Shown here: positions 5,981 to 27,699 of the stretch, piece after piece
Layout of the letters: each line of letters begins with the position of its first letter
Numbering within the stretch: the first letter of the stretch is position 1
DNA from: Metabacillus endolithicus
Lineage (GTDB): Bacteria > Bacillota > Bacilli > Bacillales > Bacillaceae
Direction: 5' to 3'
Length of the DNA stretch: 64,000 nucleotides
Assembly: GCF_023078335.1 (NCBI RefSeq)
Contig: NZ_CP095550.1
Span: 3,826,001 to 3,890,000, forward strand
Translations under genes and position numbers: made by a program
Notes under the pieces: generated by a model
What the model saw: the letters and a program-made list of their open reading frames with translations, nothing else
Told to the model about the DNA's origin: nothing
The model's database searches: none

Positions 5981-6033
5981 GTTCTATATAGGGGAACGAT
6001 AGAATACAAGTTCATTTTTTAATCCTCTATAAT
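5981..6033 (+). promoter_or_regulatory. Promoter with IclR-type operator (copy 1 of 3)
   Basis: The operator GTTCTATATAGGGGAAC (5981-5997) is a 5-7-5 inverted repeat, followed by TATAAT at 6028-6033. The operator end to -10 start distance is 31 bases, exactly as at 21332 and 25032. The expected -35 position (6005-6010) reads TACAAG, far from consensus, which suggests an activator-dependent promoter. It drives the CoA ligase at 6057. Two IclR regulators encoded at 23276-24989 are candidate binders. Confidence 0.75.
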
Positions 6034-6056
6034 TTGAGCATGAATAGGGGGGTACA

Positions 6057-7328
6057 ATGGAAAGCACAATTCGTGTTAATGAAACGGATATGACTTTTTC
6101 AGACATGCAAAACCAAAAGTTAAATCAAATGCTTGTTTTTATTTCGCAATACAATGAGTTTTATAAAGATAGGTTAAAACATGTGTCATTACCAATCAGG
6201 TCAACAGAAGATCTGCAACAACTTCCATTTACAAGTAAATATGAACTTGTACAGGATCAAACAAACTTTTCTCCATTGGGTAGAAATCACACCTTTTCTA
6301 AGGAAGAATATGTGAGATATCATCAAACATCTGGCACAACAGGGAAACCATTAAAAGTACTTGATACGAAAGAAAGTTGGACCTGGTGGGAAGATTGTTG
6401 GTTGGAAGTATTTAAATCTAGTGGTGTGACAAAAAATGACACCGCTTTCTTGGCCTTTTCCTTTGGACCTTTTATTGGCTTCTGGGCCGCATTCGAAGCA
6501 GCTAAGCGACTAGGTGCACTAGTCATCACAGGGGGAAGTCAAAGCTCTAAAGAAAGATTACAAAGCATGATAAATAATGAAGCCACCGTTTTATTATGCA
6601 CCCCAAGTTATGCTCTACACCTAGCTGAGGTAGCCGAGGGAAATTCTATAGATCTAAGAGAAACTAACATTAAAACGATCATTACTGCAGGAGAACCTGG
6701 AGGATCTGTTCCATCAATTAGACAACAAATCGAAAGGCTTTGGAATGCAAAGCTTTATGATCATGTTGGAATGACAGAGATAGGGGCATATGGATATTCA
6801 TGTACTGAACAAAATGGACTGCATGTGAATGAAGCAGAATTTATTGTGGAGGTCATCAATCCAGATACGTTAGAGCCTGTTGGAAAAGGTGAACGTGGTG
6901 AGTTGGTGCTAACGAACCTTGGAAGATATGGGTATCCTCTACTTCGTTATCGTACAGGTGATATGGTTATTTGCAGTGAAGAACCATGTCCTTGTGGTAA
7001 TAAAAATACTCTTTTAGTTAACGGTATTATTGGGCGTCTGGATGATATGGTTATTATTCGGGGGATTAATATCTTTCCTTCTTCCATTGAATCCATCATA
7101 CGTGAATTTGAAGCTGTGAAGGAATTCAGAATTATTTATTACACAGAACAAAATATGAATCAAGTTAAAGTTCAAATAGAAGCTGTGACAGATCTTGCTT
7201 CTCAAGTTGCAACTAAATTAAGAGATAGAATTGGATTAAGAATTGATGTAGAAATGGTACCAGAGAACTCACTGCCTAGATTTGACTTAAAAGCTAAGCG
7301 GGTTGTGGATGAAAGAGTTGTTAACTAA
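6057..7328 (+). CDS. Aryl-CoA ligase of the phenylacetate-CoA ligase (PaaK) type
   Basis: 423 aa, the normal length for PaaK-like adenylate-forming ligases. The AMP-binding P-loop YHQTSGTTGKPLKV is near residue 90. YDHVGMTEIGAYGYSC, the hinge-region RYRTGDMV with a CPCG pair, and the C-terminal GRLDDMVIIRGINIFPSSIE complete the family signature. The family activates phenylacetate and other aryl carboxylates as CoA thioesters. Here it shares its promoter operator with a flavin hydroxylase unit and a gentisate operon, so a hydroxybenzoate or salicylate substrate is a good guess. ATG 6057 follows GGGGGG by 4 bases. Confidence 0.8.
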   Translation: MESTIRVNETDMTFSDMQNQKLNQMLVFISQYNEFYKDRLKHVSLPIRSTEDLQQLPFTSKYELVQDQTNFSPLGRNHTFSKEEYVRYHQTSGTTGKPLKVLDTKESWTWWEDCWLEVFKSSGVTKNDTAFLAFSFGPFIGFWAAFEAAKRLGALVITGGSQSSKERLQSMINNEATVLLCTPSYALHLAEVAEGNSIDLRETNIKTIITAGEPGGSVPSIRQQIERLWNAKLYDHVGMTEIGAYGYSCTEQNGLHVNEAEFIVEVINPDTLEPVGKGERGELVLTNLGRYGYPLLRYRTGDMVICSEEPCPCGNKNTLLVNGIIGRLDDMVIIRGINIFPSSIESIIREFEAVKEFRIIYYTEQNMNQVKVQIEAVTDLASQVATKLRDRIGLRIDVEMVPENSLPRFDLKAKRVVDERVVN

Positions 7329-7350
7329 AAGCTAGAAAGTTTATAAACTA

Positions 7351-7385: not shown

Positions 7386-7405
7386 ACTTTATGGAGGGAA
7401 TTTAC

Positions 7406-7813
7406 ATGAGAAAAAGTGAGTATCAGTTTTCTGTTACTTGGGGAGATACCGATGCAGCAGGAATCGTTTTTTATCCCACTTTTTATAAATGGATGGATAC
7501 GGCAACACATCATCTATTTTCAAGCATAGGATATCCGACCTCAGAGTTGTTTACGATCAAGAAGATTGGATTACCACTTATAAAAACTACTTGTGATTTT
7601 AAGCAACCTCTCTTTTTTGAAGACAAATTGACGATACATTCAGAAATGAAAGAGATTCATAATAAAGTTTTCTTAGTAGAGCATACGTTTCAAAAGGATG
7701 ATAACATTGTTGCTATTGGTACTGAATTAAGAGCCTGGGGAGATCTATCAGGTGAGAAGCCTAAAGCTGTTGCGATCCCTAATGAAGTTCGTCAGTTGTT
7801 GGAACATGAATAA
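7406..7813 (+). CDS. Acyl-CoA thioesterase, 4-hydroxybenzoyl-CoA thioesterase family
   Basis: 135 aa from ATG 7406. An in-frame ATG at 7391 is unlikely because the ribosome site GGAGGG (7393-7398) would lie inside the gene. Hot-dog fold with the catalytic signature WGDTDAAGIVFYPTFYKWMD near the N-terminus, the Asp-x-Asp of 4-hydroxybenzoyl-CoA thioesterases of the Pseudomonas type. A closely similar paralogue is encoded at 17075. Downstream of a PaaK-type ligase, it probably releases free acid from an aroyl- or gentisyl-CoA. Confidence 0.8.
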   Translation: MRKSEYQFSVTWGDTDAAGIVFYPTFYKWMDTATHHLFSSIGYPTSELFTIKKIGLPLIKTTCDFKQPLFFEDKLTIHSEMKEIHNKVFLVEHTFQKDDNIVAIGTELRAWGDLSGEKPKAVAIPNEVRQLLEHE

Positions 7814-7828
7814 AACACTTTAATGTAG

Positions 7829-8023: not shown

Positions 8024-8027
8024 CAAA

Positions 8028-9386
8028 ATGAAAGTGATTAACCCGATGAATGTTATTGATAATAGTAAAATTTCTTCGTTTCATGTATGGCTGATAACTT
8101 GGTTGTTTTTGGTTATTGCTTTTGATGGTTATGATGTAGTAGTTTATGGTGCTTCTGTTCCATCATTAATTCAGGAGTGGGGAATTTCAGACGTAACAGC
8201 TGGTGCAATAGGCAGTTACACTGTTATCGGAACCGCTTTGGGGGCAGTTATTTTTGGGATGCTGTCTGATAAAATAGGTCGTAAAAAAATTATTTTGCTA
8301 ACAACGTTCTTATTTAGTTTCTTTACCATGATATCAGGTTTTGCGACAGGCCCAATTTTATTTGCTGTATTTAGAATCATTGCCGGAATTGGTTTAGGTG
8401 GGGTAATGCCGAACGTTATTGCTCTTGCTACTGAGTTTTCTCCAAAACGAGTTCGATCTGCTATTGTTTCTTTCATTTTCTGTGGATATTCTATTGGAGC
8501 GCTTACAGCAGCACTTACTAGCCGTTCACTATTACCAACAGTTGGATGGGAGCCGGTTTATTGGTTAGCGGGTATTCCACTTTTGTTTATCCCATTTTTA
8601 TTAAAAAGTATCCCTGAGTCGGTAGGGTTTCTTATTGAAAAAGGCAAAGAAGAGGAAGCTAGAAAAACATTAATGAAAATTGATCCAAGCTTAAGAACTG
8701 GTGGGGAGTTTGAATTTGTAAAGCCAACTGCAAAAGAACCTGGTTCACCAGTTGTGAAGCTATTTGAAGATAAACGTGCGTTAAGTACAATTATGTTCTG
8801 GGTTTCTTGCTTTAGTGCATTTGTTTTAATTTATTCTATGAACACATGGTTACCTCGACTTATGATGCAATCAGGTTATGACCTTAGCTCAAGTCTAGCA
8901 TTTACGGCTGTCATGCAAATTGGGGCAATTGCAGGTACGATTATTTTTGGTCGTTTGGTTGATAAAATTGGATTTAAGAAGGTTCTTGTTCCTTTATTCT
9001 TCTGTGGTGCTATAGCGTTATCCTTTATCGGATTAACAAATAGTATGGCAATCGCTTTTGTATTAATTGCGATCATTGGTGCAGCTTCAGTAGGATTACA
9101 GAACATCTCAAATGCATTTGTATCTCAATACTATCCTTCTAGCATGCGTTCCACAGGACTTGGAAGCACGATGGCATTTGGTCGTATTGGAGGAATAGTA
9201 GCGCCAATCTTTGTTGGGTTCCTATTAACAATGAATCTATTGCCGCAATTTAATTTTGTCGCAATCGGAGGAGCTGCATTACTTGGTGGAATCGCTATGT
9301 TGTTTGTCCAGGAAAAACATGGCGATTATTATGAAGCAAAAGAAGAGATTAAACCAGCAAACAGTCAAGTGAATGTGGCAAAATAA
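8028..9386 (+). CDS. Aromatic acid:H+ symporter (AAHS family MFS carrier)
   Basis: 452 aa, 12 predicted membrane helices. Helix 1 carries FDGYDVVVYG, the DGYD feature of the AAHS family (PcaK, BenK, gentisate carriers). SDKIGRKKII is the MFS loop motif after helix 2, and GRLVDKIGFKK is its counterpart after helix 8. It should import a benzoate-, hydroxybenzoate- or phenylpropanoid-type acid by proton symport. It is a single-gene unit with its own promoter (7905) and terminator (9406). The promoter architecture is shared with the beta-oxidation operon at 12468, pointing to co-regulation by the GAF/PucR protein between them. Confidence 0.85.
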   Translation: MKVINPMNVIDNSKISSFHVWLITWLFLVIAFDGYDVVVYGASVPSLIQEWGISDVTAGAIGSYTVIGTALGAVIFGMLSDKIGRKKIILLTTFLFSFFTMISGFATGPILFAVFRIIAGIGLGGVMPNVIALATEFSPKRVRSAIVSFIFCGYSIGALTAALTSRSLLPTVGWEPVYWLAGIPLLFIPFLLKSIPESVGFLIEKGKEEEARKTLMKIDPSLRTGGEFEFVKPTAKEPGSPVVKLFEDKRALSTIMFWVSCFSAFVLIYSMNTWLPRLMMQSGYDLSSSLAFTAVMQIGAIAGTIIFGRLVDKIGFKKVLVPLFFCGAIALSFIGLTNSMAIAFVLIAIIGAASVGLQNISNAFVSQYYPSSMRSTGLGSTMAFGRIGGIVAPIFVGFLLTMNLLPQFNFVAIGGAALLGGIAMLFVQEKHGDYYEAKEEIKPANSQVNVAK

Positions 9387-9971: not shown

Positions 9972-10061
9972 TTGTTTAAACGATCACGATTACCTTTTCA
10001 ATTAAGTTTTTCTTCTTTTATACTATTAGTATCAAGAAAAACGGAAATAGGGGGTACTTGT

Positions 10062-12266
10062 GTGTCAAACAGTAAGAGAGAAATACTAATGAAAAAAGTA
10101 GAGCATCATCTACGAACCACATCCCGGCAGCTAATTAAAATTAATACAGAAGATGAAGTGCTTCAATATTTAGCTGATTCGTTCCGTTCTGAATTATATT
10201 GTGATTTTGTTGGAGTCGTTTTGAGTGAGGGAGATTCTTTTATCCCTAAGGCGTGGAGTGGAAATACTCCTTCAGTCCTTAGGCATTTCCCTCTTTTAGC
10301 GGCAAGCTGTTCCTCCAAACTTCTTCGTCAAAGCTTAACATATAAAGCTTCTGTAACAAATAATTCTTGCAGGTTAACAGAGATACTTAAGGAAGAAAAT
10401 GTGAAAACATGGTTTACTGTTCCGTTAAATGATGACATTCAACACTTTGGTTTTTGTATCGTAGGCTTTTTAAGTTATGTTCCACTTCTAGAGATGGAAA
10501 GTCATTTTGAGGAATTTGGAAAAGATATGGCCGTCGCTCTATCTGTGGCTAGACAAAAGGAAAATCAGTTGAAAAAGCTAGAGGGAATTGAATGGATTAG
10601 CAAAAATCAGTCTCTTGATTCTTCCCTAGACCAGCATTTTTCTGAAGTAACATACAGAGCTGGGAAATCAACAAATGCTGATTTTGCTTGTATGTATTTA
10701 TATAATGAGAAAGAGAATTGCTTTGACTTACAGAAGCCTGTATATGGGGAGATGGAATATCCCGATATAATGATGATTGAGAATAACTATGCACTTAAGG
10801 AATACTTTCCATTTCTTGAGGAAACTGGATGCACCCAAATGACAGTACCACTCTTAATTGATCTTAAGCCAATTGGTGTGCTTCATGTTCAGAATAAATA
10901 TGAAAGACCTTTTTCTGAAGAAGACTTAAAAATATTAGAGATGCTATCAACACATGTTGCGACTCTCTTAGAGAATGCACGATTATATAAAAGTGAAAAA
11001 GATAATAAAAACCGTCTACACTTTTTATTAGATTTTCAACAATCACTGGTGAAAAAAACAGTTGAAGATGATGATTTTGAAGGAATTACATTAAAGCTCT
11101 CAGATTTGTTTCAAGAAACAGTTATCTTATATGACCGATTTATGAGGCCAATTGCTTTTAACTTCCGAAATAGTGATAACGATTACAATCTACCTGATAA
11201 CCTTGCACTACAAGCGAATAGGTTAAGGAAAAATCTGAAAAAACAAGAGAAGTTTACTGTCGTACACCCTGAAAGAGATGACTGTGTGTTTTCTTTTTGG
11301 GTTATAAATGGTGGAGGGAATTTATTAGGATATCTTTCTGTTTGCAATACAGCCAGTGAGATGAATGAATTTGACCAGCTAACAGTTGAGATGGCACGAA
11401 ATATATGTTCAATTCAGTTTATTAAGCAAAAGCTTGTTCTCGATACAAAAGAACAGGTCAAGGATAGCTTTATTAGCAAATTGTTGGTGGGAAAAATCGA
11501 AGATCAAGACAGTATCATTCAATATGCTAATCTGTTCCAATGGGATATTTTCAAATGTCATCGTGTTGCGGTATTGACGATTTCAATAGATGAAGATGAC
11601 CTTTTAGAACAGCAAGCAAAAAAAGTGCTTATATGGGATGCGATCAAGTCACATCTTGCAAAGTTTGATTCTCGAATATTAACAGTGTCACATGATGAAA
11701 ACTATATCCTCCTGCTAATCCCAGTGGATGATGATGTTCAAAGTAAAAATTATTGGAAAAACCTTTCTGACAATATTGAGAAATGGTCACTAGAAGTGTT
11801 TTCAGGTTGTAAGATTTTATTGGGGATTGGTACATCAACAAGCAATATGAAAGATTATTATGTAAGTTACCAACAGGCACTTCTAGCATTAAATGTTATG
11901 AATATTAGGATGAAGCATATCTCTTTTTCACTATATGAAGATCTTGGAGCTTATACAATTCTCCACCATCTCGATCAATCTAATGCGGTAAACTTGTTTA
12001 TAAAAAGTCAGCTGGATCCTCTATTAACTTACACAGAAAATAAAAACATAGATTTATATCATACTTTATACGTTTTCCTACAAAATAACGGAAATATTAA
12101 AAGTACTTCAGATGAGCTTTTCATCCACAGAAGTTCCCTGTTATACAGACTTGAAAAAATTGAATCACTACTAAATGTTGATTTGAATGATGCTGAAATC
12201 AGGTTTAATTTAATGATGGCTTTCAAGCTGCATGATATGCATGGAGAACGGTTGAAGAAGAGCTAG
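10062..12266 (+). CDS. GAF-domain transcriptional regulator with PucR-type C-terminal helix-turn-helix
   Basis: 734 aa from GTG 10062, chosen because AGGGGGT lies 7 bases before it; an upstream TTG frame at 9972 lacks a site. Two GAF-like sensor domains occupy roughly residues 20-160 and 190-325 (the second with FLEETGCTQMTVPLLIDLKPIGVLHVQNKYERPF as core). A middle region follows. The C-terminal PucR/CdaR helix-turn-helix is NNGNIKSTSDELFIHRSSLLYRLEKI. Such proteins sense aromatic or purine-type effectors and usually activate. It lies between two operons whose promoters share a CCTACA palindrome. Confidence 0.85.
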   Translation: MSNSKREILMKKVEHHLRTTSRQLIKINTEDEVLQYLADSFRSELYCDFVGVVLSEGDSFIPKAWSGNTPSVLRHFPLLAASCSSKLLRQSLTYKASVTNNSCRLTEILKEENVKTWFTVPLNDDIQHFGFCIVGFLSYVPLLEMESHFEEFGKDMAVALSVARQKENQLKKLEGIEWISKNQSLDSSLDQHFSEVTYRAGKSTNADFACMYLYNEKENCFDLQKPVYGEMEYPDIMMIENNYALKEYFPFLEETGCTQMTVPLLIDLKPIGVLHVQNKYERPFSEEDLKILEMLSTHVATLLENARLYKSEKDNKNRLHFLLDFQQSLVKKTVEDDDFEGITLKLSDLFQETVILYDRFMRPIAFNFRNSDNDYNLPDNLALQANRLRKNLKKQEKFTVVHPERDDCVFSFWVINGGGNLLGYLSVCNTASEMNEFDQLTVEMARNICSIQFIKQKLVLDTKEQVKDSFISKLLVGKIEDQDSIIQYANLFQWDIFKCHRVAVLTISIDEDDLLEQQAKKVLIWDAIKSHLAKFDSRILTVSHDENYILLLIPVDDDVQSKNYWKNLSDNIEKWSLEVFSGCKILLGIGTSTSNMKDYYVSYQQALLALNVMNIRMKHISFSLYEDLGAYTILHHLDQSNAVNLFIKSQLDPLLTYTENKNIDLYHTLYVFLQNNGNIKSTSDELFIHRSSLLYRLEKIESLLNVDLNDAEIRFNLMMAFKLHDMHGERLKKS

Positions 12267-12467: not shown

Positions 12468-13322
12468 ATGGCGATTCAAACAATTGGTGTGGTTGGTGCT
12501 GGTTCGATGGGAGCAGGTATTGCGAATCTAGCAGCTATGAATAAGTTTAATGTTATTTTAAATGATATTGAGGAGCGTTTTTTAGATGGTGCTCTTAAAC
12601 GTATTGATAAGTTTATGAGCAAAAGTGTGGAAAGAGGAAAAATGACTGAAGAGCAAAAGCAAGAAGCATTTGCCCGTATTCAAACAACTACTAGCTTGGA
12701 AGAAATGAGTGGAGCAGATGTGGTGATTGAAGCAGTTTTAGAGGATCTCTCATTAAAGAAAGAAGTATTTTCAAAGCTTGATAGCATTGTGAACGAAAAT
12801 TGCATTTTAGCTACAAATACTTCATCCATGTCTATTACAGAAATTGCTTCTGCAACGAAACGTCCAGAACGTGTGGCAGGGATGCATTTCTTTAATCCAG
12901 CACAACTCATGAAGCTTGTTGAAGTAGTTCGTGGATATAAGACAAGTGATGAAACCATCGAAGAATTGAAAGCGCTATCCAAACAGCTGTCGAAAGAGCC
13001 AGTTGAAGTAAAGAAAGATTCTCCCGGATTTATCGTAAATAGAATTATGATTCCACAATTTATTGAAGCGATTAAGCTATTAGAGGAAGGAGTTGCTTCA
13101 GCTGAAGATATCGATAAGGCGGTAACACTTGGATTGAACTACCCAATGGGACCTTTCACTCTTCAAGATTATGCGGGAGTTGAGATTGGCTACCATGTGA
13201 TGGAGTATTTTAAAGAAGAATTTAATGATAACCATTTTGCTCCACCACAACTATTAAAACAGTTAGTTAGAGCAGGAAGACACGGTAAGAAAACAGGTGC
13301 AGGATTTTACGATTACGAATAA
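12468..13322 (+). CDS. 3-hydroxyacyl-CoA dehydrogenase (3-hydroxybutyryl-CoA dehydrogenase type)
   Basis: 284 aa, standard length for the monofunctional enzyme. The N-terminal NAD fold is IGVVGAGSMGAGIANLAA. The catalytic His lies in AGMHFFNPAQLMKLVEVV, and the C-terminal domain contains PGFIVNRIM and GLNYPMGPFTLQDYAG. It oxidises 3-hydroxyacyl-CoA to 3-oxoacyl-CoA with NAD. It is the first gene of an operon that continues with enoyl-CoA hydratase and thiolase. In this setting the acyl group is probably an aryl-propanoyl chain. Confidence 0.85.
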   Translation: MAIQTIGVVGAGSMGAGIANLAAMNKFNVILNDIEERFLDGALKRIDKFMSKSVERGKMTEEQKQEAFARIQTTTSLEEMSGADVVIEAVLEDLSLKKEVFSKLDSIVNENCILATNTSSMSITEIASATKRPERVAGMHFFNPAQLMKLVEVVRGYKTSDETIEELKALSKQLSKEPVEVKKDSPGFIVNRIMIPQFIEAIKLLEEGVASAEDIDKAVTLGLNYPMGPFTLQDYAGVEIGYHVMEYFKEEFNDNHFAPPQLLKQLVRAGRHGKKTGAGFYDYE

Positions 13323-13339
13323 TGAAGGGGGACTTAATA

Positions 13340-14119
13340 ATGACTTATGAATTTTTATTATGTGAAATTGAAGAAAATGTAGCGGTGGTAACGATTAACA
13401 GACCACCGGTTAATCCATTGAATACCGTTGTATTTCAAGAACTTTCAACCTTATTTGATGTATTAGATGCAGACGATGAAGTCCGTGCCATCATTCTTAC
13501 TGGCAGCGGTGAGAAAGCGTTCGTGGCAGGAGCTGACATCAACGAAATGGCTAGTCTTGATCTTGTTGGTGTTAATAAAATGAACAAAGTTTCTAGAACC
13601 GTTTTTTCTAAAATTGAACAAACGACAAAGCCTGTTATTGCTGCCCTTAATGGTTTAGCACTTGGTGGAGGCTTAGAGCTTGCTCTAGCATGTGATCTGC
13701 GAATTAGCTCAGATCGAGCAAAATTTGCTTTTCCAGAGGTAGGTTTAGGAATCATCCCTGGTGGTGGCGGAACTCAGCGATTACAAAAAATTGTTGGTCA
13801 AGGAATAGCTAAGGAACTTCTATACTTCGGTGATATGTTTGATGCAAATAGAGCACTAGAATTAAGGATTGTTAACAAAGTAGTTCCAGCTGAAGAGGTT
13901 CTTGGTGCAGCAAAAGAATGGGCAAAGAAATTGGCACAAAAGCCTCCAGTTGCGCTTCAAATGGTGAAAACAGCGGTAAACGTTGGTGGAAATACGGACT
14001 TAGAATCAGGACTTATCATTGAAAGTACTTGCTTTGGGAATGCTTTTTCAACTCAAGATAGAATCGAGGGACTTCAAGCTTTTGTGGAGAAAAGAAAACC
14101 TGTTTATACAGGGAGATAA
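13340..14119 (+). CDS. Enoyl-CoA hydratase/isomerase family protein
   Basis: 259 aa from ATG 13340. The in-frame ATG at 13322 overlaps the previous stop and lies before the ribosome site AAGGGGGA, so it is rejected. Crotonase fold with the oxyanion-hole motif AGADINEMA near residue 60 and GLALGGGLELALACD near 103. The catalytic Glu pair falls in the GGLELALACD helix and in AFPEVGLGIIPGGGGTQRL. It hydrates trans-2-enoyl-CoA. It stands between the dehydrogenase and the thiolase and completes a beta-oxidation set with the acyl-CoA dehydrogenase at 17498. Confidence 0.85.
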   Translation: MTYEFLLCEIEENVAVVTINRPPVNPLNTVVFQELSTLFDVLDADDEVRAIILTGSGEKAFVAGADINEMASLDLVGVNKMNKVSRTVFSKIEQTTKPVIAALNGLALGGGLELALACDLRISSDRAKFAFPEVGLGIIPGGGGTQRLQKIVGQGIAKELLYFGDMFDANRALELRIVNKVVPAEEVLGAAKEWAKKLAQKPPVALQMVKTAVNVGGNTDLESGLIIESTCFGNAFSTQDRIEGLQAFVEKRKPVYTGR

Positions 14120-14153
14120 GAAACACCATCACTAAAAAATGAGGTGAAATACC

Positions 14154-15329: not shown

Positions 15330-15490
15330 TTGATTTCGGAATAAATATTTTGAATTCCCAAGGAAATGAAAGCGTTGTATCGAATGTTATATGTGTGTGA
15401 TTTGATTAATTTAATTTCAATGATATGTATCGTTATAAATATAGAAAATTCTTTATCTACACTTGTTAAGAATAGAAACAAGGGAGAGGG

Positions 15491-17054: not shown

Positions 17055-17074
17055 AGTGAAAGAGGGGCCTTTAG

Positions 17075-17494
17075 ATGACAAATAACTATGATTTTAAGGT
17101 GAGATGGGGAGATACAGATGCTGCAGGTATCGTATTTTATCCCAATTTTTATAAATGGATGGATGAGGCAACACATGAATATTTATCAGCTATTGGATAT
17201 CCATCTTCCAAGTTGTTTCAAGAACAGCAAATAGGCTGTCCGATTCTTGAGGCAAATTGTCAATTCAAGCAACCGCTTTCATTTGAAGATTCTGTTAGAG
17301 TTCAAAGCATAGTTCAGGAAATTCAAAATAAAGTGTTTAAAATTAGTCATGTGTTCTTAAGGGGAGAAAAAGAAATAGCAAAAGGATATGAAGTTCGTGC
17401 TTGGACTTCTTTTAAAGATAAGCCAAAAGCACAGCCAATTCCCGAAGAAGTGCGAGCAAAAATGTTACAGCCTAATCAGCATGTGGAGGTTTAA
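17075..17494 (+). CDS. Acyl-CoA thioesterase, 4-hydroxybenzoyl-CoA thioesterase family (paralogue 2)
   Basis: 139 aa. It is a clear paralogue of the 7406 gene: both share WGDTDAAGIVFYPxFYKWMD, FKQPLxFED and the NKVFxxxHxF block. Hot-dog fold with the catalytic Asp near residue 15. It begins 20 bases after the ligase and ends 3 bases before the acyl-CoA dehydrogenase, so it is tightly co-transcribed. Likely hydrolyses an aroyl-CoA (hydroxybenzoyl- or gentisyl-CoA). One copy per regulon suggests each set needs its own CoA release step. Confidence 0.8.
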   Translation: MTNNYDFKVRWGDTDAAGIVFYPNFYKWMDEATHEYLSAIGYPSSKLFQEQQIGCPILEANCQFKQPLSFEDSVRVQSIVQEIQNKVFKISHVFLRGEKEIAKGYEVRAWTSFKDKPKAQPIPEEVRAKMLQPNQHVEV

Positions 17495-17497
17495 AAT

Positions 17498-19195: not shown

Positions 19196-19214
19196 TCCTA
19201 TATAGGGAGAGTGA

Positions 19215-20333: not shown

Positions 20334-20358
20334 CGTTAAGATAAGGAGGTAGCCTTGG

Positions 20359-21216
20359 ATGAAAATCGCAATTTTTAATGAGAATTTACTTGGAATTGTT
20401 CAAGGAAATATAATCATTGACGTATCAAATGCAGTGGAATGGAAGCCGTCTAATCCAGGTGAATCTTTTCAACGCCTTATTGAAAACTTTGATGTGTTGA
20501 AAGGAAGAATAGAGGATGCCATAGCAACGAGTACATCATTTCCTTTATCTAGTGTAAAACTTCATTCACCTGTACCTTCTACAAAGAAGATTTGGGCTGC
20601 ACCAGTTAACTATAAAAACCATCAAATTGAAATGAATAAAATGTTTAATAATGCCCCGCGAACAATTGAAGATTTGGCATTATTTCTAAAATCTCCTGAA
20701 TCACTATCAGGACCGACCGACCCGATTATTCTACCATTTAAAGACCGTAGAACAGATCATGAAGCAGAGCTTGGCTATATTGTTGGTAAAAAAGCGAAAA
20801 ATGTAAAAGCAGAAGATGCGAAAAGCTATATTTTTGGTTATTTTGCTCTTTTAGATATATCAATTAGAGGAAATGAAGAGAGAACATGGAGAAAGTCGTT
20901 TGATACGTTTACACCAATTGGTCCATGGATTGTCACTGCTGATGAAATTGAAGATCCTAATGATTTAAAAATGACGTTGTGGGTAAATGATGAAATACGT
21001 CAGGATGGTAGTACAAGGCATTTAATTTATGATTGCTATAAATGTTTTGAAGTCGCTTGTAATAATATGACGCTAAATGCTGGAGATATTATCGCAACAG
21101 GTACTCCAGAAGGCGTTGGACCAATTGAGCATGGTGACAAGGTGAAAATTGAAATTGAACAAATTGGTGGATTTGAGGTAGATGTTTGTCACGCAGTTGA
21201 GAAAATAGAATGCTAG
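20359..21216 (+). CDS. Fumarylacetoacetate hydrolase family protein (ring-fission product hydrolase)
   Basis: 285 aa. Short FAH form with the metal-ligand cluster DHEAELGYIVG, YIFGYFALLDISIR in place of the usual NDVTxRD, and the C-terminal GDIIATGTPEGVGPIEHGD. It starts 26 bases after the divergent bicupin dioxygenase with AAGGAGG. It probably cleaves that dioxygenase's product into pyruvate plus a dicarboxylate, the role of fumarylpyruvate or maleylpyruvate hydrolases. Last gene of the long operon; a hairpin follows. Confidence 0.8.
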   Translation: MKIAIFNENLLGIVQGNIIIDVSNAVEWKPSNPGESFQRLIENFDVLKGRIEDAIATSTSFPLSSVKLHSPVPSTKKIWAAPVNYKNHQIEMNKMFNNAPRTIEDLALFLKSPESLSGPTDPIILPFKDRRTDHEAELGYIVGKKAKNVKAEDAKSYIFGYFALLDISIRGNEERTWRKSFDTFTPIGPWIVTADEIEDPNDLKMTLWVNDEIRQDGSTRHLIYDCYKCFEVACNNMTLNAGDIIATGTPEGVGPIEHGDKVKIEIEQIGGFEVDVCHAVEKIEC

Positions 21217-21331: not shown

Positions 21332-21384
21332 GTTCCGTATAGAAGAACAACAGGATAAGAATATTCACTATAATTTCTTATAAT
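21332..21384 (+). promoter_or_regulatory. Promoter with IclR-type operator (copy 2 of 3)
   Basis: GTTCCGTATAGAAGAAC (21332-21348), then TATAAT at 21379-21384, 31 bases from the operator end. A second TATAAT at 21369-21374 is also present. The -35 position (TAAGAA) is not consensus. It drives the flavin hydroxylase unit at 21425. Confidence 0.75.
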
Positions 21385-21424: not shown

Positions 21425-22655
21425 ATGTCAAATAGAAAAAAATGTGATGTGATCGTTGTTGGTGCTGGACCGGTTGGACTTGTAGCAGGTCTTGCTTTGC
21501 AAAAAAAGGGAATTTCATCTGTTGTGATCGAAGCTGAACCATTTGGACGTGCCCGCCCAGGGAGTCGTGCTATATATCTGCATAGTGCCACGTTAAAGCT
21601 CTTAGAAGAAACATCAAAAGGACTTGGTTTTACTCTAGCAAGAAACGGAATTATCTGGCCAGTAAAAAGAACTTTGTACAAAGGTAAAGAAGTGTATGTA
21701 CGTAATTATGGAATAACAAATAACAAGGATCCTCATAAACTACCGCATTTTACAGCACTTCATCAAGATGAAATTGAGAAACATATTTATGAAGAATGCT
21801 TGGAAGCTGGTGTGGAGTTTTCCTGGAATTCACCTGTAGACAAATTAGTTATTGAAAAAGATCATGTTATTTTAACGACGAAATCTGGTGAAGAATGGGA
21901 AGCTAAATACATTATTGGTAGTGACGGTGCTCGTTCTGTTGTCAGAGAGCAGGCTGGCTTAAAGTTTGAAGGTCCAAGAACAAATGATACTTTCCTTGTA
22001 GTCGATGTTAAAGAAGACGCGGAAAATCCTCTTCCTCTTGAGAGAACATTCCATTATCAACACCCTGCAATGGGAGGACGTAATGTGATGTTTGTTCCTT
22101 TTAAAGGAGGCTGGCGTGTGGATCTTCAACTGTTAGAAAACGATAATCCAGAAGAGTTTTCTGATCTTGAAGGAGTGAAAAAGTGGCTGCCAAAAGTAAT
22201 GGATTCAAAATACACAGAAAGAATTACATGGGTATCAACATATCGTTTTCATCAGGTTGTTGCTAACTCGTTTACTGATGAAAAGCATAGAGTTCTTCTT
22301 GCTGGTGAAGCTGCTCATTTATTCGCTCCATTTGGTGCTCGCGGTCTAAACTCTGGAGTTCCTGATGCACTGTTAGCTGTTCGTGGAATCGAAAAAGCCC
22401 TAAAAGCTAATTCAGAAGAAGAGCGAACAGAAGCCATTGAAGCGGTGGCAAATGAACGTAGAATTGCAGCGCTGTGGAACCGTGACGGCTCAAGCACAGC
22501 CTCTACATCATTTACAAGGAAATGCTCCTGATATGAATATGAAGCGTGAACTAGCTGCATCACTTGTATCTATTATTCCTAGATTGGGACGTTGGTTAGA
22601 TGAAGGTCCTTATGGTCCTAAATTTGGACCACCTGAATTAACAACAAAATATTAA
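21425..22655 (+). pseudogene. FAD-dependent aryl (aroyl-CoA) hydroxylase, one frameshift near the 3' end
   Basis: About 410 aa when read through one small indel near 22500. The first frame runs from ATG 21425 to 22531, and the family sequence continues in the frame ending TAA 22655 (LHHLQGNAPDMNMKREL onward). Group A flavin monooxygenase: GAGPVGLVAGLALQKKG (about 12-28), GSDGARSVVRE near 160, and GEAAHLFAPFGARGLNSG near 295. Its CoA-pathway neighbours recall salicylyl-CoA 5-hydroxylase and the 4-hydroxybenzoyl-CoA hydroxylase that gives gentisyl-CoA by an NIH shift. That assignment is inferred from context. If the indel is real, about 40 C-terminal residues are replaced by a short tail. Confidence 0.75.
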
Positions 22656-22686: not shown

Positions 22687-23238
22687 ATGTCTGAGAATAT
22701 TAATGTTGCAGAAGCTGATTTGCAGACAAAATCTATTGACGCAATGGTGAATAGATTACAAGCTATTCATTGGGGGAAGAAGGCTGGGCAGAAAAATCTA
22801 GAGGCAGAGGAAAAAGTCATTGAATTTATGAATGATCTTAACGTGAATTCTTATGAAATAAAGTGGTTATCAAAAGAAGAAGTACCAGAAACGATTAGCC
22901 GTCTTACTTTTGAGGGAAGTGAAATGTGGGAATCTTTAAACGAAATTCCAGAAGAGTTAAGCCGCAAAATTAAGGAAGCTGGTCATGAAAAATACCTTTT
23001 GGATTTAGGTGATCGCGTACCGGAACGCATCTTTCATGGTGCTTACTCACATCTGTTTCAGCAATTTGAAGAAAAGAAAACTGTAGAATATCTAGTTGGT
23101 TTAGCCATGTACGTGAGTGTGATGTCATGCACAGCGGAGCTAGCCGAGGGGAAAAATATTTTTATATCAATTGTTGATTTAATTGAGGCTGGTCACTTAC
23201 CGATAGGATCTGAGGGAAATACGTTTTATCTAATATAA
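22687..23238 (+). CDS. Uncharacterised 183-aa acidic protein in the hydroxylase unit
   Basis: I do not recognise this family. It is a soluble, Glu-rich protein with mostly helical-looking sequence and no signal peptide. One hydrophobic stretch, EYLVGLAMYVSVMSCTAEL (about 138-156), carries the only Cys and could be a buried helix. It starts 31 bases after the hydroxylase with AAAGGAG and ends at the unit's terminator, so it is the second gene of that two-gene unit. A structural partner of the hydroxylase, or an isomerase or small-molecule enzyme of the gentisate route, is possible but unproved. Confidence 0.6.
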   Translation: MSENINVAEADLQTKSIDAMVNRLQAIHWGKKAGQKNLEAEEKVIEFMNDLNVNSYEIKWLSKEEVPETISRLTFEGSEMWESLNEIPEELSRKIKEAGHEKYLLDLGDRVPERIFHGAYSHLFQQFEEKKTVEYLVGLAMYVSVMSCTAELAEGKNIFISIVDLIEAGHLPIGSEGNTFYLI

Positions 23239-23245: not shown

Positions 23246-23277
23246 AAACCATCCAGTGTTCTGTTGCTGGATGGTTT
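23246..23277. terminator. Bidirectional terminator between the 183-aa gene and the IclR gene
   Basis: Perfect 11-bp stem AAACCATCCAG with CTGGATGGTTT, flanked by A- and T-rich ends. It overlaps the stop codon of the leftward IclR gene, so it can serve both directions. Confidence 0.8.
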
Positions 23278-24052
23278 ATTTAAAGTATCCCAGCATTTCA
23301 GAAATCTGACTGCTTGCTGCTTTTATTTTATCAATGAATAGTGGATATCTTTCTTCTGATAGTCGTGATGTTGAACTAATAATTGATACAGAAGCAACTA
23401 CGTTTTCTGTATGATCATAGATAGGGGCAGCAATCCCAACAAAGCCTTTGTAAAAATGGTCGGGTGTAATGGCATAGCCTTTTTTTCGAATTTTACTCAT
23501 TTCATCTCTTAATTCCTTTGGATCTGTTAGTGTGAACTCAGTGTAAGAGTAAAAAGTATTCTTTAAAAAGCTGTTGATCCTCTTTTGTTTTTGAAAAGCC
23601 ATAATAGCTAGCCCTTCACTTGTACAATGGATAGGATTTTTCCTCCCCATATATGTTAAAAGTCTTTCAGGCTGATCACATTCTTTTCGAAACAAATAAA
23701 CAACTTCATGATCCTCGAGAAGACATATATGAGCGGTTTCTCCTAACTCATCCACAAGGTTGTCTACAATAGGTTGTGCTTCGAGATAGAGATCTCTATG
23801 ACTAAACACAACACCACCTAATGTTAGAAGAGATAGTCCTAAGCGATAGTGATTTGTTTTCGGATTTTTAGATAAAAATCCCTCATCAACTAACCCCGTA
23901 ATTAATCGATGTGTGGTGCTTTTAGGCAAATCAATGAGTCTGGTAATCTCTGTGACACTTAATTCTTCCTGTCCCTTTTTGAACAAACGTAATATTCTCA
24001 TAGCATTCTTAACAGAAGATAAGATCGCTTTTGCAGGGGGATCATTATTCAT
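23276..24052 (-). CDS. IclR family transcriptional regulator (1)
   Basis: About 258 aa from ATG 24052. An in-frame GTG at 24067 lies in the ribosome-site region AGAGGTGA and is less likely. N-terminal winged helix with LSVTEITRLIDLPKSTTHRLITGLVDEGFL as helix-turn-helix, linked to a C-terminal IclR effector-binding domain (CTSEGLAIMAF, GYAITPDHFYKGFVGIAAPIYD). IclR proteins bind small acids and can activate or repress. It is divergent from a second IclR gene, and together they lie between two promoters with the same palindrome. Either could bind the GTTCY-N7-RGAAC operator. Confidence 0.85.
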   Translation of the reverse strand: MNNDPPAKAILSSVKNAMRILRLFKKGQEELSVTEITRLIDLPKSTTHRLITGLVDEGFLSKNPKTNHYRLGLSLLTLGGVVFSHRDLYLEAQPIVDNLVDELGETAHICLLEDHEVVYLFRKECDQPERLLTYMGRKNPIHCTSEGLAIMAFQKQKRINSFLKNTFYSYTEFTLTDPKELRDEMSKIRKKGYAITPDHFYKGFVGIAAPIYDHTENVVASVSIISSTSRLSEERYPLFIDKIKAASSQISEMLGYFK

Positions 24053-24203
24053 TGAGCTCCATTTCACCTCTTTTTAAGAAATTCTTCTTCTATTATACTA
24101 AAAGAAGTGAGTTTCCTCTATTTAACAAAGGAGATGTTATGCCTTTAGTGAATTGTTAGATAAGAGTAAAAATGTAAGAGTCTAAAAGAGTGGAGTGAGT
24201 GTA

Positions 24204-24989
24204 TTGAAGGAGAAAAGAGACTCATCTCTAGCAAATGCTTTGAGTATTTTGAAAGGCTTTACAATGGATCATCCTGAACAAGGTGTAACCGATGTTGCGA
24301 AACATTTAGGGTTAAGCAAGAGCACCGTTCACAGGCTGCTTGCATCTATGGCAAGTGAAGGCTTTGTTTATAAAAATCCCCGTACAAATCGTTACAGCTT
24401 AGGAACCTCTGTTTTAACATTAACGAATCTTGTGGGTTCACAGCTACCAATTTTAAATGAATCAGTTCCTGTTTTAAATATGTTAACAGAAAGAACAGGT
24501 GAAACCTCACATCTTGGAATTCTTGAGGATCAACATATGATTTATCTTCAAAAGGTTGAGTGTGATAACCCAACTTCACTGTTTACACATATTGGAAAAA
24601 GACATCCTATCCATGCAACAAGTATTGGTCAAGCTATTCTAGCCTTTCAGGAGCAGGATGAAAGACACCAACTTTTACCGGAAACGTTGGAATCCTTTAC
24701 AAACCACACAATAACCTCCCATAAGAGATTATATGAAAAAATCAATCTAATTAAAGCAGAAAAATATGTTATATGTGACCGAGAACTACAGGAAGACGTG
24801 ATGGCGATTGCAGCACCAATCTTTAATGAGAAGGGCAAAGTGCTGGCAGCCATTAATATTGTCGGACCAGCAAATCGGATAAAAAGTAAGCTGAAAAGTC
24901 ATCGATTAGTTGAAGAGGTCGTTCGTTCAGGAGAGAAAATAACGGAATTAGTAAGGATGCGAAAATTAAAAAATCGTTACAAAAGCTGA
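24204..24989 (+). CDS. IclR family transcriptional regulator (2)
   Basis: About 261 aa from TTG 24204. GGAG (24192-24195) gives an 8-base spacing to this codon; the in-frame GTG at 24195 overlaps the site. Winged helix VTDVAKHLGLSKSTVHRLLASMASEGFV, effector domain with THIGKRHPIHATSIGQAILAF and DREL(x)EDVMAIAAPIFNEKG. It is a paralogue of the leftward IclR gene and lies directly upstream of the gentisate operon, separated by a terminator. Probable activator of the three-promoter regulon, though which of the two does it cannot be told from sequence. Confidence 0.85.
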   Translation: MKEKRDSSLANALSILKGFTMDHPEQGVTDVAKHLGLSKSTVHRLLASMASEGFVYKNPRTNRYSLGTSVLTLTNLVGSQLPILNESVPVLNMLTERTGETSHLGILEDQHMIYLQKVECDNPTSLFTHIGKRHPIHATSIGQAILAFQEQDERHQLLPETLESFTNHTITSHKRLYEKINLIKAEKYVICDRELQEDVMAIAAPIFNEKGKVLAAINIVGPANRIKSKLKSHRLVEEVVRSGEKITELVRMRKLKNRYKS

Positions 24990-25031: not shown

Positions 25032-25084
25032 GTTCCATATAGAAGAACGATAGAATGTGAGCTCAATCTTCATCTCGATATAAT
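25032..25084 (+). promoter_or_regulatory. Promoter with IclR-type operator (copy 3 of 3)
   Basis: GTTCCATATAGAAGAAC (25032-25048) and TATAAT at 25079-25084, again 31 bases apart. Beyond the operator the sequence stays close to copy 1 (both continue CGATAGAAT, and both have ATGAGCA- or TTGAGCA-like bases after the -10). Poor -35 (TGTGAG). It drives the gentisate operon. Confidence 0.8.
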
Positions 25085-25127
25085 ATGAGCAAGATCATAA
25101 CAATTTTTCGATTTGGAGGGAATGAAA

Positions 25128-26078
25128 TTGAAACTAGTATCGTTTACGAAAGATGGGATAACACGTATTGGAGCAATAGAGAATGAAAACGTGATTGATT
25201 TAAATGCCGCCTATTGTGCCTTACTTGAGTCAGAAGGGAAACTACGTGCTGAAAAAATTGCCGAAGCATTTGTTCCAGGAGAAATGACGGATTTTCTAAA
25301 AGGTGGCTCTGAGAGCATTGAGGAAGCAAAAAAGGCAGCTGCCTATGCGATAAATAATGTTGAAGTAAAGGGGCGTAAGCTTGTTTATTCCATTACTGAT
25401 GTGAAAATAGAGGCACCTGTTCCCGCTCCTGGCAAAATGATTTGCGTTGGTCATAATTATCGTGAGCATATTTTAGAAATGAAACGAGAACTACCTCCAC
25501 ACCCTGTTGTTTTTGCAAAATTTGCCAATACAGTTGTTGGACCGCAGGATGATATTCCGTTTCATCCGATTTCAGAGCAGTTAGATTATGAAGCAGAATT
25601 TGCCTTTGTTATTGGTCAACGTGCACGCAATGTTTCACAAGATGAGGCTCTTAAATATGTTGCAGGATATACGATTGTGAATGATGTTACGTATCGTGAT
25701 TTACAACGTCGAACATTACAGTGGCTTCAAGGCAAGGCTGTAGATGGAAGCGCTCCAATGGGTCCTTGGTTAGTAACAGCAGACGATCTAACAGATCCAT
25801 CTGGCTTAGATATTGTTTTAACGGTGAATGGCGAAGAGCGTCAACGTTCTAATACTGCGAATCTAGTTTTCTCAGTTCCATATCTTGTTGAATTTTTATC
25901 GAATATTATGACGCTTGAGCCAGGCGATATTATTCTGACTGGTACACCTGGAGGAGTAGGGGTCGCGAGGGATCCACAAGTGTTTTTAAAGGATGGAGAC
26001 GTTGTTCGTATTGAGGTTGATCAGGTGGGAGTTCTTAAAAATAAAGTGAAACAAACAGCGGAGGTGCCGGTATCATGA
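25128..26078 (+). CDS. Fumarylpyruvate hydrolase-like FAH family protein
   Basis: About 316 aa from TTG 25128, 7 bases after GGAGGG; an in-frame ATG at 25122 is too close to the site. FAH domain with MICVGHNYREH, DYEAEFAFVIG (metal Glu pair), NDVTYRDLQRRT and GDIILTGTPGGVGVARDP. It overlaps the next gene by 4 bases (ATGA) and is two genes before a canonical gentisate 1,2-dioxygenase. It should therefore split fumarylpyruvate (or maleylpyruvate) into pyruvate and fumarate (or maleate), the last step of the gentisate pathway. Confidence 0.85.
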   Translation: MKLVSFTKDGITRIGAIENENVIDLNAAYCALLESEGKLRAEKIAEAFVPGEMTDFLKGGSESIEEAKKAAAYAINNVEVKGRKLVYSITDVKIEAPVPAPGKMICVGHNYREHILEMKRELPPHPVVFAKFANTVVGPQDDIPFHPISEQLDYEAEFAFVIGQRARNVSQDEALKYVAGYTIVNDVTYRDLQRRTLQWLQGKAVDGSAPMGPWLVTADDLTDPSGLDIVLTVNGEERQRSNTANLVFSVPYLVEFLSNIMTLEPGDIILTGTPGGVGVARDPQVFLKDGDVVRIEVDQVGVLKNKVKQTAEVPVS

Positions 26079-26572
26079 CCAAAACATTACAAATGAGCGC
26101 CATTGAATCTGTTCATCAATCCATTCAGAACATCATTAGTGTAGTAAAGGATCTTTCAGAGAAGGAAATTAGATGGAATCCATCAATGGAGGAATGGTCT
26201 ATTATGCAGATTATTACTCATGTTGCTGAAGCCATACCTTATTGGGTGAGGGAGATTCAACAGATAAAAGAGCATCCTGATCAAACATGGGGTCGGGGCT
26301 TAACGGATGAAACAAGACTGAAAACAGTGTCGGAAGCAAATGTGAACAGTTTACTGATTGAAGATGTATTAGACCAACTTGCCGCAGTACCATCTTTTGT
26401 TAAAGAAACGCTTCAAGCTCTTTCAAGTGAAGATTTAGAAATAATTGCTCCAAGCCGTAACCCACGCTTTGATGGAAAACCTGTTGAGTTTATCGTAAAC
26501 CATTTGATCGTGGAGCATGTTGAAAAGCACGATCATCAAATTCAGCGCAATTTATCAAAGTTTAATCAGTAA
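26075..26572 (+). CDS. DinB-family protein, candidate bacillithiol-dependent maleylpyruvate isomerase
   Basis: 165 aa four-helix DinB/YfiT-like fold. The likely metal triad is His in IMQIITHVAEA (near 49) and two His in VEHVEKHDHQIQ near the C-terminus. DinB-fold enzymes include the mycothiol-dependent maleylpyruvate isomerase of actinobacteria and the bacillithiol S-transferases of Bacillus. It lies between the fumarylpyruvate hydrolase and gentisate dioxygenase genes, overlapping the former by 4 bases, precisely where an isomerase is needed. Function as a maleylpyruvate isomerase is inferred, not shown. Confidence 0.75.
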   Translation: MTKTLQMSAIESVHQSIQNIISVVKDLSEKEIRWNPSMEEWSIMQIITHVAEAIPYWVREIQQIKEHPDQTWGRGLTDETRLKTVSEANVNSLLIEDVLDQLAAVPSFVKETLQALSSEDLEIIAPSRNPRFDGKPVEFIVNHLIVEHVEKHDHQIQRNLSKFNQ

Positions 26573-26586
26573 AAGGGGGAGAAGAC

Positions 26587-27699
26587 ATGGCTGAAAAGAA
26601 TGAATTTTTTAACAGTACAATTGTTCAGGATTTTAATAGAGACATAGAGCAATACCATTTAGGACCCTTATGGAATGCCATTCCGGATTTAATGAAGCAT
26701 ACCCCTGAACCACATGCACAGGCATACTTATGGAAAAGTGAATTGTTAATGAAAAAGCTACAGGAAGCTACACAAATATTCACTCCAGATCGTGGGGGAG
26801 AAAGAAGAGCGATTTACTTACAAAATCCAGGTCTAAATTATAGAAAGCCATGGGGCTGGGCATCAACGACTCAAACATTATACGCAGCTGTTCAGTTAAT
26901 ACAACCTGGCGAAACTGCACCATCTCATCGACATGTGCAAAACGCACTTCGTTTTGTCATGGAAGGAGAAGGGGCATACTCCATTGTTCAAGGTGAAAGA
27001 ATCTTTATGGAAAGAGGAGACTTCTTAACAACACCAAATGGTTTATGGCACGGTCACGGACATGAAGGTGATAAACCGATGATCTGGATGGACTGTCTTG
27101 ATATTCCAACAATCTACTATCTTGGTGGAACATTCTTTGAACCATACCCAGATCGTATCGAGCAGCCTAGTCTTCCAGATAACTATAGTTCACAACGCTA
27201 CCAAGGTGGAATGGTTCGTCCGATTTCAGACCGCTATTCGAAAAAAGCTCCTCTTGGGTCTTATAAATGGCAAGGAACTGAGGCAGCAATCAACGGCTTA
27301 AGCCGATTTGAGCCAGATCCGTATGATGGCTATGCAGTTGAGTACATTAATCCTTCAAATGGCGACACAGCTTGTCCTACCATTGCAGCTTGGATGCAGA
27401 AGCTTCCTGCTGGATTTAGAGGGAAAGCACATCGTCATACTCATGCATCCATCTATCATGTACATGAAGGGGAAGGTCACACAATTATTAACGGTGTTCG
27501 CTTTGATTGGTCAAAAGGAGACTTCTTTGTTGTACCAAACTGGGCGTTACACGAGCACGTTGCTTCAAGTGATAGTTATTTATTCTCAACAAATGATTTA
27601 CCAATCTTAGAGAAATTCGGGTTGGAGCGTAAACAAGAGTATGATAAGAATAATGGATATCAGACGATAACTGGTGAGTTTACTCCGGTTTTAGGGTAA
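26587..27699 (+). CDS. Gentisate 1,2-dioxygenase
   Basis: 370 aa bicupin of canonical length. First iron site PSHRHVQNALRFVMEGEG (His near 114 and 116) with LWHGHGHEG (near 154). The second cupin is KAHRHTHASIYHVHEGEGHT with LHEHV. The family opens gentisate between C1 and C2 to maleylpyruvate using Fe(II) and O2. Third gene of the IclR-operator operon, behind the hydrolase and the DinB protein. The sequence is more typical of gentisate dioxygenases than the copy at 19215. AAAGGGGGAG gives a good start at ATG 26587. Confidence 0.88.
   Translation: MAEKNEFFNSTIVQDFNRDIEQYHLGPLWNAIPDLMKHTPEPHAQAYLWKSELLMKKLQEATQIFTPDRGGERRAIYLQNPGLNYRKPWGWASTTQTLYAAVQLIQPGETAPSHRHVQNALRFVMEGEGAYSIVQGERIFMERGDFLTTPNGLWHGHGHEGDKPMIWMDCLDIPTIYYLGGTFFEPYPDRIEQPSLPDNYSSQRYQGGMVRPISDRYSKKAPLGSYKWQGTEAAINGLSRFEPDPYDGYAVEYINPSNGDTACPTIAAWMQKLPAGFRGKAHRHTHASIYHVHEGEGHTIINGVRFDWSKGDFFVVPNWALHEHVASSDSYLFSTNDLPILEKFGLERKQEYDKNNGYQTITGEFTPVLG

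Follow-up and report, generated by a model that had tools for sequence, protein, structure and literature searches.

An IclR-type promoter design shared by three gene units of a predicted hydroxybenzoate-to-gentisate route in Metabacillus endolithicus

Do three dispersed gene units on the chromosome of Metabacillus endolithicus answer to one switch, and if so, which compound would throw it? The question arises from a 64,000-nucleotide stretch (positions 3,826,001 to 3,890,000 of contig NZ_CP095550.1, assembly GCF_023078335.1; hereafter the window) in which a coenzyme A (CoA) ligase, a hydroxylase dependent on flavin adenine dinucleotide (FAD) and a gentisyl-CoA-type thioesterase are encoded together with genes for gentisate ring cleavage (Table 1). 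A preliminary description of this DNA had noted the palindrome GTTCY-N7-RGAAC ahead of three units, here called a, b and c, and had proposed that they form one regulon performing a complete CoA-dependent route to gentisate. Judging from the comparisons reported here, we think it likely that the three units are one IclR-activated regulon, which would take hydroxybenzoate through hydroxybenzoyl-CoA and gentisyl-CoA to gentisate, and gentisate to central metabolism, in a manner resembling PhgABC. The single-regulon part of the proposal is supported by the recurrence of the same operator at the same distance from the -10 ahead of the same genes in many Bacillota, where the arrangement tracks, with exceptions, a pair of IclR genes. 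The route itself is backed by gene content and by the gene order of relatives; its completeness in this genome is doubtful, because the hydroxylase gene is frameshifted as deposited.

Operator and promoter geometry

The three palindromes stand where the preliminary description had placed them, and its further observation, that each is followed at 31 bases by TATAAT without a -35 hexamer, is borne out: the best match to TTGACA at a spacing of 16-18 base pairs (bp) is 2, 3 and 3 of 6 bases in units a, b and c. It had passed over a fourth exact match in the window, starting at 30835. The chance expectation for GTTCY-N7-RGAAC is 0.15 per window, and none of 100 shuffles reached four. The version that includes the ATA core common to the three sites, GTTCYNTATAGNRGAAC, has three copies in the 5,297,781-base genome, all of them inside the window, and the reversed-pattern control has none. 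We rejected the fourth palindrome (30835-30851) as an operator: it lies within a rhamnosidase open reading frame (ORF), and has neither the ATA core nor a TATAAT in the nearest 120 bases. The window holds no operator with 7 or 8 arm matches and the ATA core beyond the three, and Rfam and tRNA scans of it gave no matches. A chance origin of the palindromes is rejected by the shuffles and the whole-genome count, as well as by the genus counts and the -10 spacing in relatives that are given below. By eye, the site at 25032 agrees at 15/17 positions with GKTYCRYW3-4RYGRAMC, the consensus of the IclR group 1 palindrome according to an excerpt of PMC8222616.

We took 80 named loci encoding relatives of the unit b hydroxylase, out of a larger number, and mapped 26 window proteins onto them. 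Sites were chosen by the operator alone, with at least 7 of 8 arm bases and the ATA core, no more than 330 bases ahead of a target, that is, a gene for the hydroxylase, the ligase, the FAH-type hydrolase of unit c (FAH2) or 3-hydroxyacyl-CoA dehydrogenase, in 38 Bacillota stretches with one near copy removed. The resulting 34 sites leave out the window's own three and include seven from genomes of the source genus. A -10 with at most one mismatch starts at 30-32 in 29/34 of them, against 0-2 of 34 in each of nine other three-base bins. The T at operator+24, where a -35 at 17-bp spacing would begin, played no part in choosing the sites; it is kept in 30/34, compared with 35% T in that stretch, and in 38/43 promoters of a further set (three are the window's own, and the -10 had a share in picking these). 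Taken over all six bases, the -35 hardly differs from background, with a mean of 2.72 of 6 matches over 29 sites and 2.49 at random positions. Outside the source genus, 27 sites were found in 21/33 stretches, with the -10 at 30-32 in 22/27 and the T in 23/27. When sites were counted on both strands of 1.42 Mb, the right spacing was seen in 29/34 near targets and in 6/22 elsewhere, and the six in question precede a hydroxylase gene whose start was unrecognised, three acyl-CoA ligase genes, a transporter gene and an alpha/beta hydrolase gene. Genera with the arrangement, some with 6 or 7 of 8 arm bases, include Alteribacillus, Domibacillus, Siminovitchia, Thalassobacillus, Aeribacillus and Sporosarcina, and further Salsuginibacillus, Halobacillus, Ureibacillus, Melghirimyces, Peribacillus and Bacillus in the broad sense.

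The preliminary description had suggested scanning related genomes for the operator. At long range the palindrome alone says nothing: GTTCYNNATAGNRGAAC has 26 sites in 22 of 299 genomes of the order, and its reversed control 28. The composite of operator and -10 gave 26 matches in 21 genomes of the source genus, 19 of them at the clusters described here and 7 elsewhere; the reversed control gave 11, so that no weight attaches to a single composite match far from genes of this kind. Strays in L221 and L222, inspected as regulon sites, look like background.

Two groups of relatives carry the operator at additional genes. In Bacillus sp. M6-12 it also precedes an alpha/beta hydrolase gene and an aromatic-acid transporter gene (L011:6703, L011:12183), which are likely extra regulon members. 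In Thalassobacillus and Halobacillus (L019:4456, L019:6278, L031:4256, L031:6078) it also precedes genes for an acyl-CoA ligase and for a protein of 687 amino acids (aa) whose start matches 3-hydroxyacyl-CoA dehydrogenase, and beta-oxidation may therefore belong to the regulon there.

The IclR genes and the sister clusters

Two IclR-family genes, a and b, sit between units b and c; both products contain PF09339 and PF01614, the IclR DNA-binding and ligand domains, above cut-off, and by eye their recognition helices are alike. Among the 21 genomes of the source genus, GTTCYNNATAGNRGAAC has three sites in the window genome, three in G061 and two each in G057 and G067, and all 10 stand ahead of the hydroxylase (4/4), FAH2 (4/4) or the ligase (2/2 having one there). 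The other 17 genomes hold one stray site, in G063, and the reversed control has two in the 21. Close orthologues of IclR a (90-100% identical; next best 41%) and of IclR b (88-100%; next best 46%) occur in the same four genomes only. Stops in IclR a of G067 and G061 were considered as gene breaks and rejected: in G067 the stop falls at query residue 3, upstream of a Met that occupies codon 6, and in G061 the match runs from residue 6, so that both are matters of the start site.

The association extends beyond the genus. Over 38 loci, the operator lies ahead of the hydroxylase in 14/20 with an IclR gene at least 35% identical in the stretch, versus 4/18 without (p = 0.004). Eight of the ten exceptions can be accounted for: in L032 (a weak site), L034 and L125 the operator stands at the promoter of the ligase gene, and the hydroxylase comes after it; the stricter rule left out a 7-of-8 site in L028; in L018 the operator is at FAH2; L119, a fragment, has its IclR pair in L120; L016 has its IclR pair 25 kb away (G351); and L036 is a second Domibacillus. 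Both IclR genes are present at 43% identity in Geobacillus jurassicus (L032). Heyndrickxia coagulans (L048, G289) has the hydroxylase and lacks both an IclR match at E 1e-35 and an operator at the hydroxylase or at FAH2.

The preliminary description had left salicylate and 4-hydroxybenzoate as alternative substrates, and here the sister genomes favour 4-hydroxybenzoate. The composite search matched 10/21 genus genomes: five with the hydroxylase; G071, whose single match looks like chance; and G055, G056, G063 and G065, each with two matches beside an IclR gene. At these last clusters the spacing is 30-31, the T at +24 is kept in 8/8 sites and the -10 is weak (TATTCT, TATGCT or TATGTT). The gene stretches were read in G056 and G063, where one operator precedes pobA and the other the ring-cleavage genes. 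The left-flank operon of the window is present in both at 90-98% identity and is followed there by genes for a 4-hydroxybenzoate 3-monooxygenase, an IclR protein (45% identical to IclR b), and extradiol cleavage and lower steps. G056 PobA scores 595 bits against PRK08243 (cut-off 351) and 535.6 against TIGR02360, just below the cut-off of 538.7; the ring-cleavage enzyme reaches 111 bits against HpaD, whose cut-off is 316, and protocatechuate is for that reason a presumed substrate. On the right, G056 has relatives (81-87%) of the window genes at 56-59 kb, and none were found in G063 within the 3.1 kb examined there. The sister clusters thus share with the window the operator, the spacing, the T and an IclR neighbour, and differ from it in using 3-hydroxylation of the free acid and extradiol cleavage, with one IclR gene and a weaker -10. 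Across the genus, pobA occurs in 4/21 genomes and the hydroxylase in 5/21, never together. Given the same promoter design and this mutual exclusion, it is simplest to take 4-hydroxybenzoate as the compound served by both systems; Bacillus species degrade it via protocatechuate or gentisate (Crawford, 1976, as cited in an excerpt of PMC7581956).

We note that the left-flank operon (634-5964), conserved as it is, encodes an FrsA-like hydrolase, an FAH protein (FAH0), a cyclase-like protein, a PRK06847-type FAD monooxygenase and a transporter.

The encoded enzymes and their known counterparts

The gene contents given in the preliminary description are right in kind and call for two amendments, in that the hydroxylase ORF is cut by a frameshift and that FAH2 has a likelier start: the TTG at 25113 lies within a TTGGAGGGA run that resembles a ribosome site, which makes the later ATG the better candidate. 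The inventory had also omitted three proteins of the beta-oxidation cluster, namely another gentisate dioxygenase, another FAH protein and another thioesterase.

Table 1. Features of the window, in window coordinates.
Feature	Position	Strand	Remarks
Operator, unit a	5981..5997	+	GTTCTATATAGGGGAAC; T at +24 present
-10 TATAAT, unit a	6028..6033	+	begins at 31st base past operator
PaaK-type aryl-CoA ligase, 423 aa	6057..7328	+	nearest solved by sequence: phenylacetate-CoA ligase, E 3e-65
Hotdog acyl-CoA thioesterase, 140 aa, candidate gentisyl-CoA thioesterase	7391..7813	+	nearest solved: 4-hydroxybenzoyl-CoA thioesterase, E 2e-38
Aromatic acid/H+ symporter-type transporter	8028..9386	+	without own operator
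PucR-type regulator	9972..12266	+	ahead of beta-oxidation cluster
Beta-oxidation cluster	12468..21216	+	hydroxylase gene follows it
Operator, unit b	21332..21348	+	GTTCCGTATAGAAGAAC; T at +24 present
-10 TATAAT, unit b	21379..21384	+	spacing 31; second TATAAT at 21369
FAD-dependent aryl-CoA hydroxylase (FAD_binding_3), 368 aa as read	21425..22531	+	frameshifted
X183, 183-aa protein	22687..23238	+	family without Pfam entry
IclR-family regulator a	23276..24067	-	true start probably internal codon 6
IclR-family regulator b	24195..24989	+	IclR domains
Operator, unit c	25032..25048	+	GTTCCATATAGAAGAAC; T at +24 present
-10 TATAAT, unit c	25079..25084	+	spacing 31
FAH-type hydrolase FAH2, candidate fumarylpyruvate hydrolase	25113..26078	+	start more likely ATG at 25122
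DinB-superfamily protein, candidate thiol-dependent maleylpyruvate isomerase	26075..26572	+	PF12867 49.8 bits
Gentisate 1,2-dioxygenase, second copy (GDO2)	26587..27699	+	solved gentisate dioxygenases match at E 2e-73

A thiol-dependent maleylpyruvate isomerase of the DinB type has reportedly been described from Paenibacillus. The position of the DinB gene, between FAH2 and GDO2 in 19/20 loci, would fit an isomerase of that type. The unit a thioesterase resembles BH1999 of Bacillus halodurans, a gentisyl-CoA thioesterase with Asp16 and Asp31 (PMC516016, excerpt), in being a hotdog protein of a gentisate cluster with an Asp pair at the same spacing of 15, a likeness drawn from sequence.

The hydroxylase matches relatives of about 409 residues over its residues 1-359 and is in frame to about 22501, and its conserved C-terminal tail is found in the next frame, reaching about 22655. 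In Heyndrickxia coagulans 36D1, too, the hydroxylase is split between frames (L048:10001-11400). Brevibacillus relatives are 61-64% identical; two from Streptomyces and two from Nocardiopsis (L062, L063, L075, L077) are 47-48% identical, each encoded just after two genes for ligases of the adenosine monophosphate (AMP) type. Haloarchaeal relatives (L078, L079, L081, L084, L085), at 44-45% identity, are in keeping with a report that Haloarcula D1 degrades 4-hydroxybenzoate by way of gentisate (PMC6140281, excerpt). Behind the hydroxylase gene lies that of X183, directly or with one gene between, in 26/39 stretches; it is farther off in four and was not seen in nine, two of which (L119, L092) are fragmentary or small. 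X183, which matches a Cytobacillus protein at 89%, is mostly helical and without family, an Rhs immunity protein being the closest fold; that it is a partner of the hydroxylase is a guess.

The hydroxylase appears to have two sources of substrate. In the Bacillota it adjoins the PaaK ligase, a beta-oxidation cluster or both, and in a few stretches neither. The window's cluster encodes 3-hydroxyacyl-CoA dehydrogenase, enoyl-CoA hydratase, thiolase, acyl-CoA ligase, thioesterase, acyl-CoA dehydrogenase, gentisate dioxygenase 1 and FAH 1, and is probably a second feed, supplying hydroxyaryl-CoA from phenylpropanoids. Compared with G067 and G061, its acyl-CoA ligase gene (15491-17054) is frameshifted twice, and the ORF list shows the 422-aa 3' part alone. 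In a hydroxylase tree of 39 rows, 16 ligase-only and 11 beta-oxidation-only, the two settings interleave, with five changes per label (4 and 5 of 500 shuffles were as low), and the two hydroxylases of Brevibacillus fluminis, one in each setting, are sisters at 85.5% identity. A division of the hydroxylases by context into two substrate classes is not borne out by this tree, in which long branches leave the deep nodes unsure; as the settings do not separate and the B. fluminis copies are sisters, the one enzyme appears to accept aryl-CoA of either origin. If it hydroxylates para to the phenol, the 2-, 3- and, with an acyl shift, 4-isomers would all yield gentisyl-CoA.

Among the closest counterparts is phgABC, reportedly of Brevibacillus laterosporus PHB-7a and described by Zhao et al. 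in 2018 as converting 4-hydroxybenzoate to gentisate with a carboxyl NIH shift. That conversion is also given second-hand in an excerpt of PMC7862547, according to which phgABC in Pseudomonas chlororaphis gave no significant gentisate. The likeness, one of gene content and order, lies in a CoA ligase, a hydroxylase and a thioesterase leading to gentisate; the compact order in Geobacillus L032, ligase-hydroxylase-thioesterase-FAH2-DinB-GDO2, is the order of the steps with the lower route appended. In contrast to phgABC, the window genes stand under three promoters and are joined by X183 and by a beta-oxidation cluster that shares the hydroxylase. No protein named PhgB is among the hydroxylase matches listed (120 in each of two listings). 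The salicylate route of Streptomyces sp. WA46 passes through CoA-thioester hydroxylation to gentisyl-CoA (second-hand, in an excerpt of PMC4600096), and homologous hydroxylases are found in Streptomyces loci; unlike that route, with its AMP-type ligases, the window has one PaaK-type ligase. GenR of Corynebacterium glutamicum, an IclR protein of 3-hydroxybenzoate and gentisate breakdown, has the site ATTCC-N7(5)-GGAAT (PMC8222616, excerpt). The two systems share the IclR family, gentisate genes and an N7 palindrome, but the window has GTTCY...RGAAC arms, two regulators and a CoA route, and systems of its type keep a fixed spacing from operator to -10 across genera; the comparison with GenR took in protein family, gene content and site sequence.

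A proposed mechanism and its alternatives

We propose that an IclR-family activator, a, b or both, would bind GTTCY-N7-RGAAC centred near -51 and recruit RNA polymerase to promoters with a good -10 and a -35 reduced to its first T. The PaaK-type ligase would activate free hydroxybenzoate, most likely 4-hydroxybenzoate, and the FAD hydroxylase would convert the hydroxybenzoyl-CoA to gentisyl-CoA, the 4-isomer being hydroxylated at the ring carbon that bears the acyl-CoA, with a shift of the acyl group. The hotdog thioesterase would then release gentisate, whose breakdown to fumarate and pyruvate would fall to the dioxygenase, to the DinB protein in the role of maleylpyruvate isomerase, and to the FAH protein.

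Several observations weigh against this proposal. A -35 match of 5 of 6 occurs in one of 29 promoters and of 4 of 6 in four. Operator and -10 precede 12/17 of the ligase genes examined and 4/22 of those for FAH2, which in the relatives examined is often inside a longer operon. The PaaK ligase occurs in 3/21 genus genomes (the window's, G061 and G064), and G057 and G067 keep operators on units b and c yet are without it at E 1e-80, so that unit a is optional. At 308 and 347 bits, both gentisate dioxygenases score below the curated cut-off of TIGR02272 (442.1), which is nonetheless the best family for each. Two loci, L022 and L043, are unexplained in that one of the two, operator or IclR gene, is in view there and the other is not. 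In G340, whose hydroxylase is of the Geobacillus type, IclR b has no match at E 1e-35 and the match to IclR a is a mere 29%. Two IclR genes are present, and either a or b may be the one that binds. Finally, the hydroxylase gene, open in the sisters G067, G061 and G057, is not intact here as deposited, and the strain's own route may be inactive unless this is a sequencing error.

The last point leads to the thought that the hydroxylase and the beta-oxidation ligase are real pseudogenes of a pathway decaying in this strain, a reading to which we give appreciable but lesser weight. It would account for one frameshift in the former and two in the latter, set against open copies of the hydroxylase in G067, G061 and G057 and of the ligase in G067 and G061; but just these two genes are split among the sister ORFs compared, the sister G067 has a split gene of its own, and short frameshifts of this kind are common assembly errors. 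(The split gene in G067 is that of the aromatic-acid transporter, L119:3483-4833.) As to regulation, the sites might serve repression or both functions, or be read by another regulator, at promoters that are not activated. IclR proteins can indeed repress, activate or do both (PMC8222616, excerpt), but the position from -59 to -43, the fixed spacing and the lack of a -35 are what an activator needs, and the operator is associated with the IclR pair, which together make such a reading improbable.

It is comparably unlikely, in our view, that the regulon is as proposed and its natural substrate is salicylate, through an SdgC-like 5-hydroxylation of salicylyl-CoA. The actinobacterial hydroxylase relatives adjoin two AMP-ligase genes, a layout that we take to be the one expected of an sdg salicylate cluster, and the M6-12 operator precedes an alpha/beta hydrolase gene whose product presumably resembles plant methyl-salicylate esterases at its start; yet the window ligase is of the PaaK type, not of the two-ligase type, and the sister genomes put the same promoter design ahead of pobA. 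A further reading, compatible with the regulon that we propose and entertained only tentatively, is that the hydroxylase acts on several hydroxybenzoyl-CoA isomers alike, hydroxylating each para to its phenol group, and is fed both by beta-oxidation and by ligation. The interleaved settings, the sister copies in B. fluminis and the place of the window gene at the junction of both settings speak for it. However, context is silent on substrate range, both feeds could supply one isomer, and the labels in the tree are more clustered than in most shuffles.

The IclR group 1-type operator, which is near that of GenR, the enzymes and the chemistry are of known kind. As far as our searches reach, what is new is the Bacilli regulon, the constancy of its promoter geometry across many genera, the replacement of one chemistry by another behind a single promoter grammar, and X183; the literature searched, with most subscription journals outside its reach, contained no account of how a CoA route to gentisate is regulated in Bacilli. 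Somewhat speculatively, the fixed IclR promoter geometry, with its palindrome, a T eight bases beyond and a -10 at 31, could be a portable wiring standard for 4-hydroxybenzoate breakdown in Bacilli: sister species would have swapped a whole chemistry at one chromosomal slot while keeping the promoter grammar, with pobA and extradiol cleavage on one side and CoA ligation, acyl-shift hydroxylation and gentisate on the other; the hydroxylase would be a hub turning several hydroxybenzoyl-CoA isomers, supplied by ligation or by beta-oxidation of phenylpropanoids, into one product, and X183 would be an undescribed partner.

The fixed geometry provides a search key for members of the regulon and names a testable inducer, 4-hydroxybenzoate. 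The sister genomes offer a natural comparison, in which one switch and the same left flank go with two different chemistries. If the hydroxylase does take several isomers, a single enzyme would go some way towards accounting for the convergence of phenolic acids on gentisate in Bacilli.

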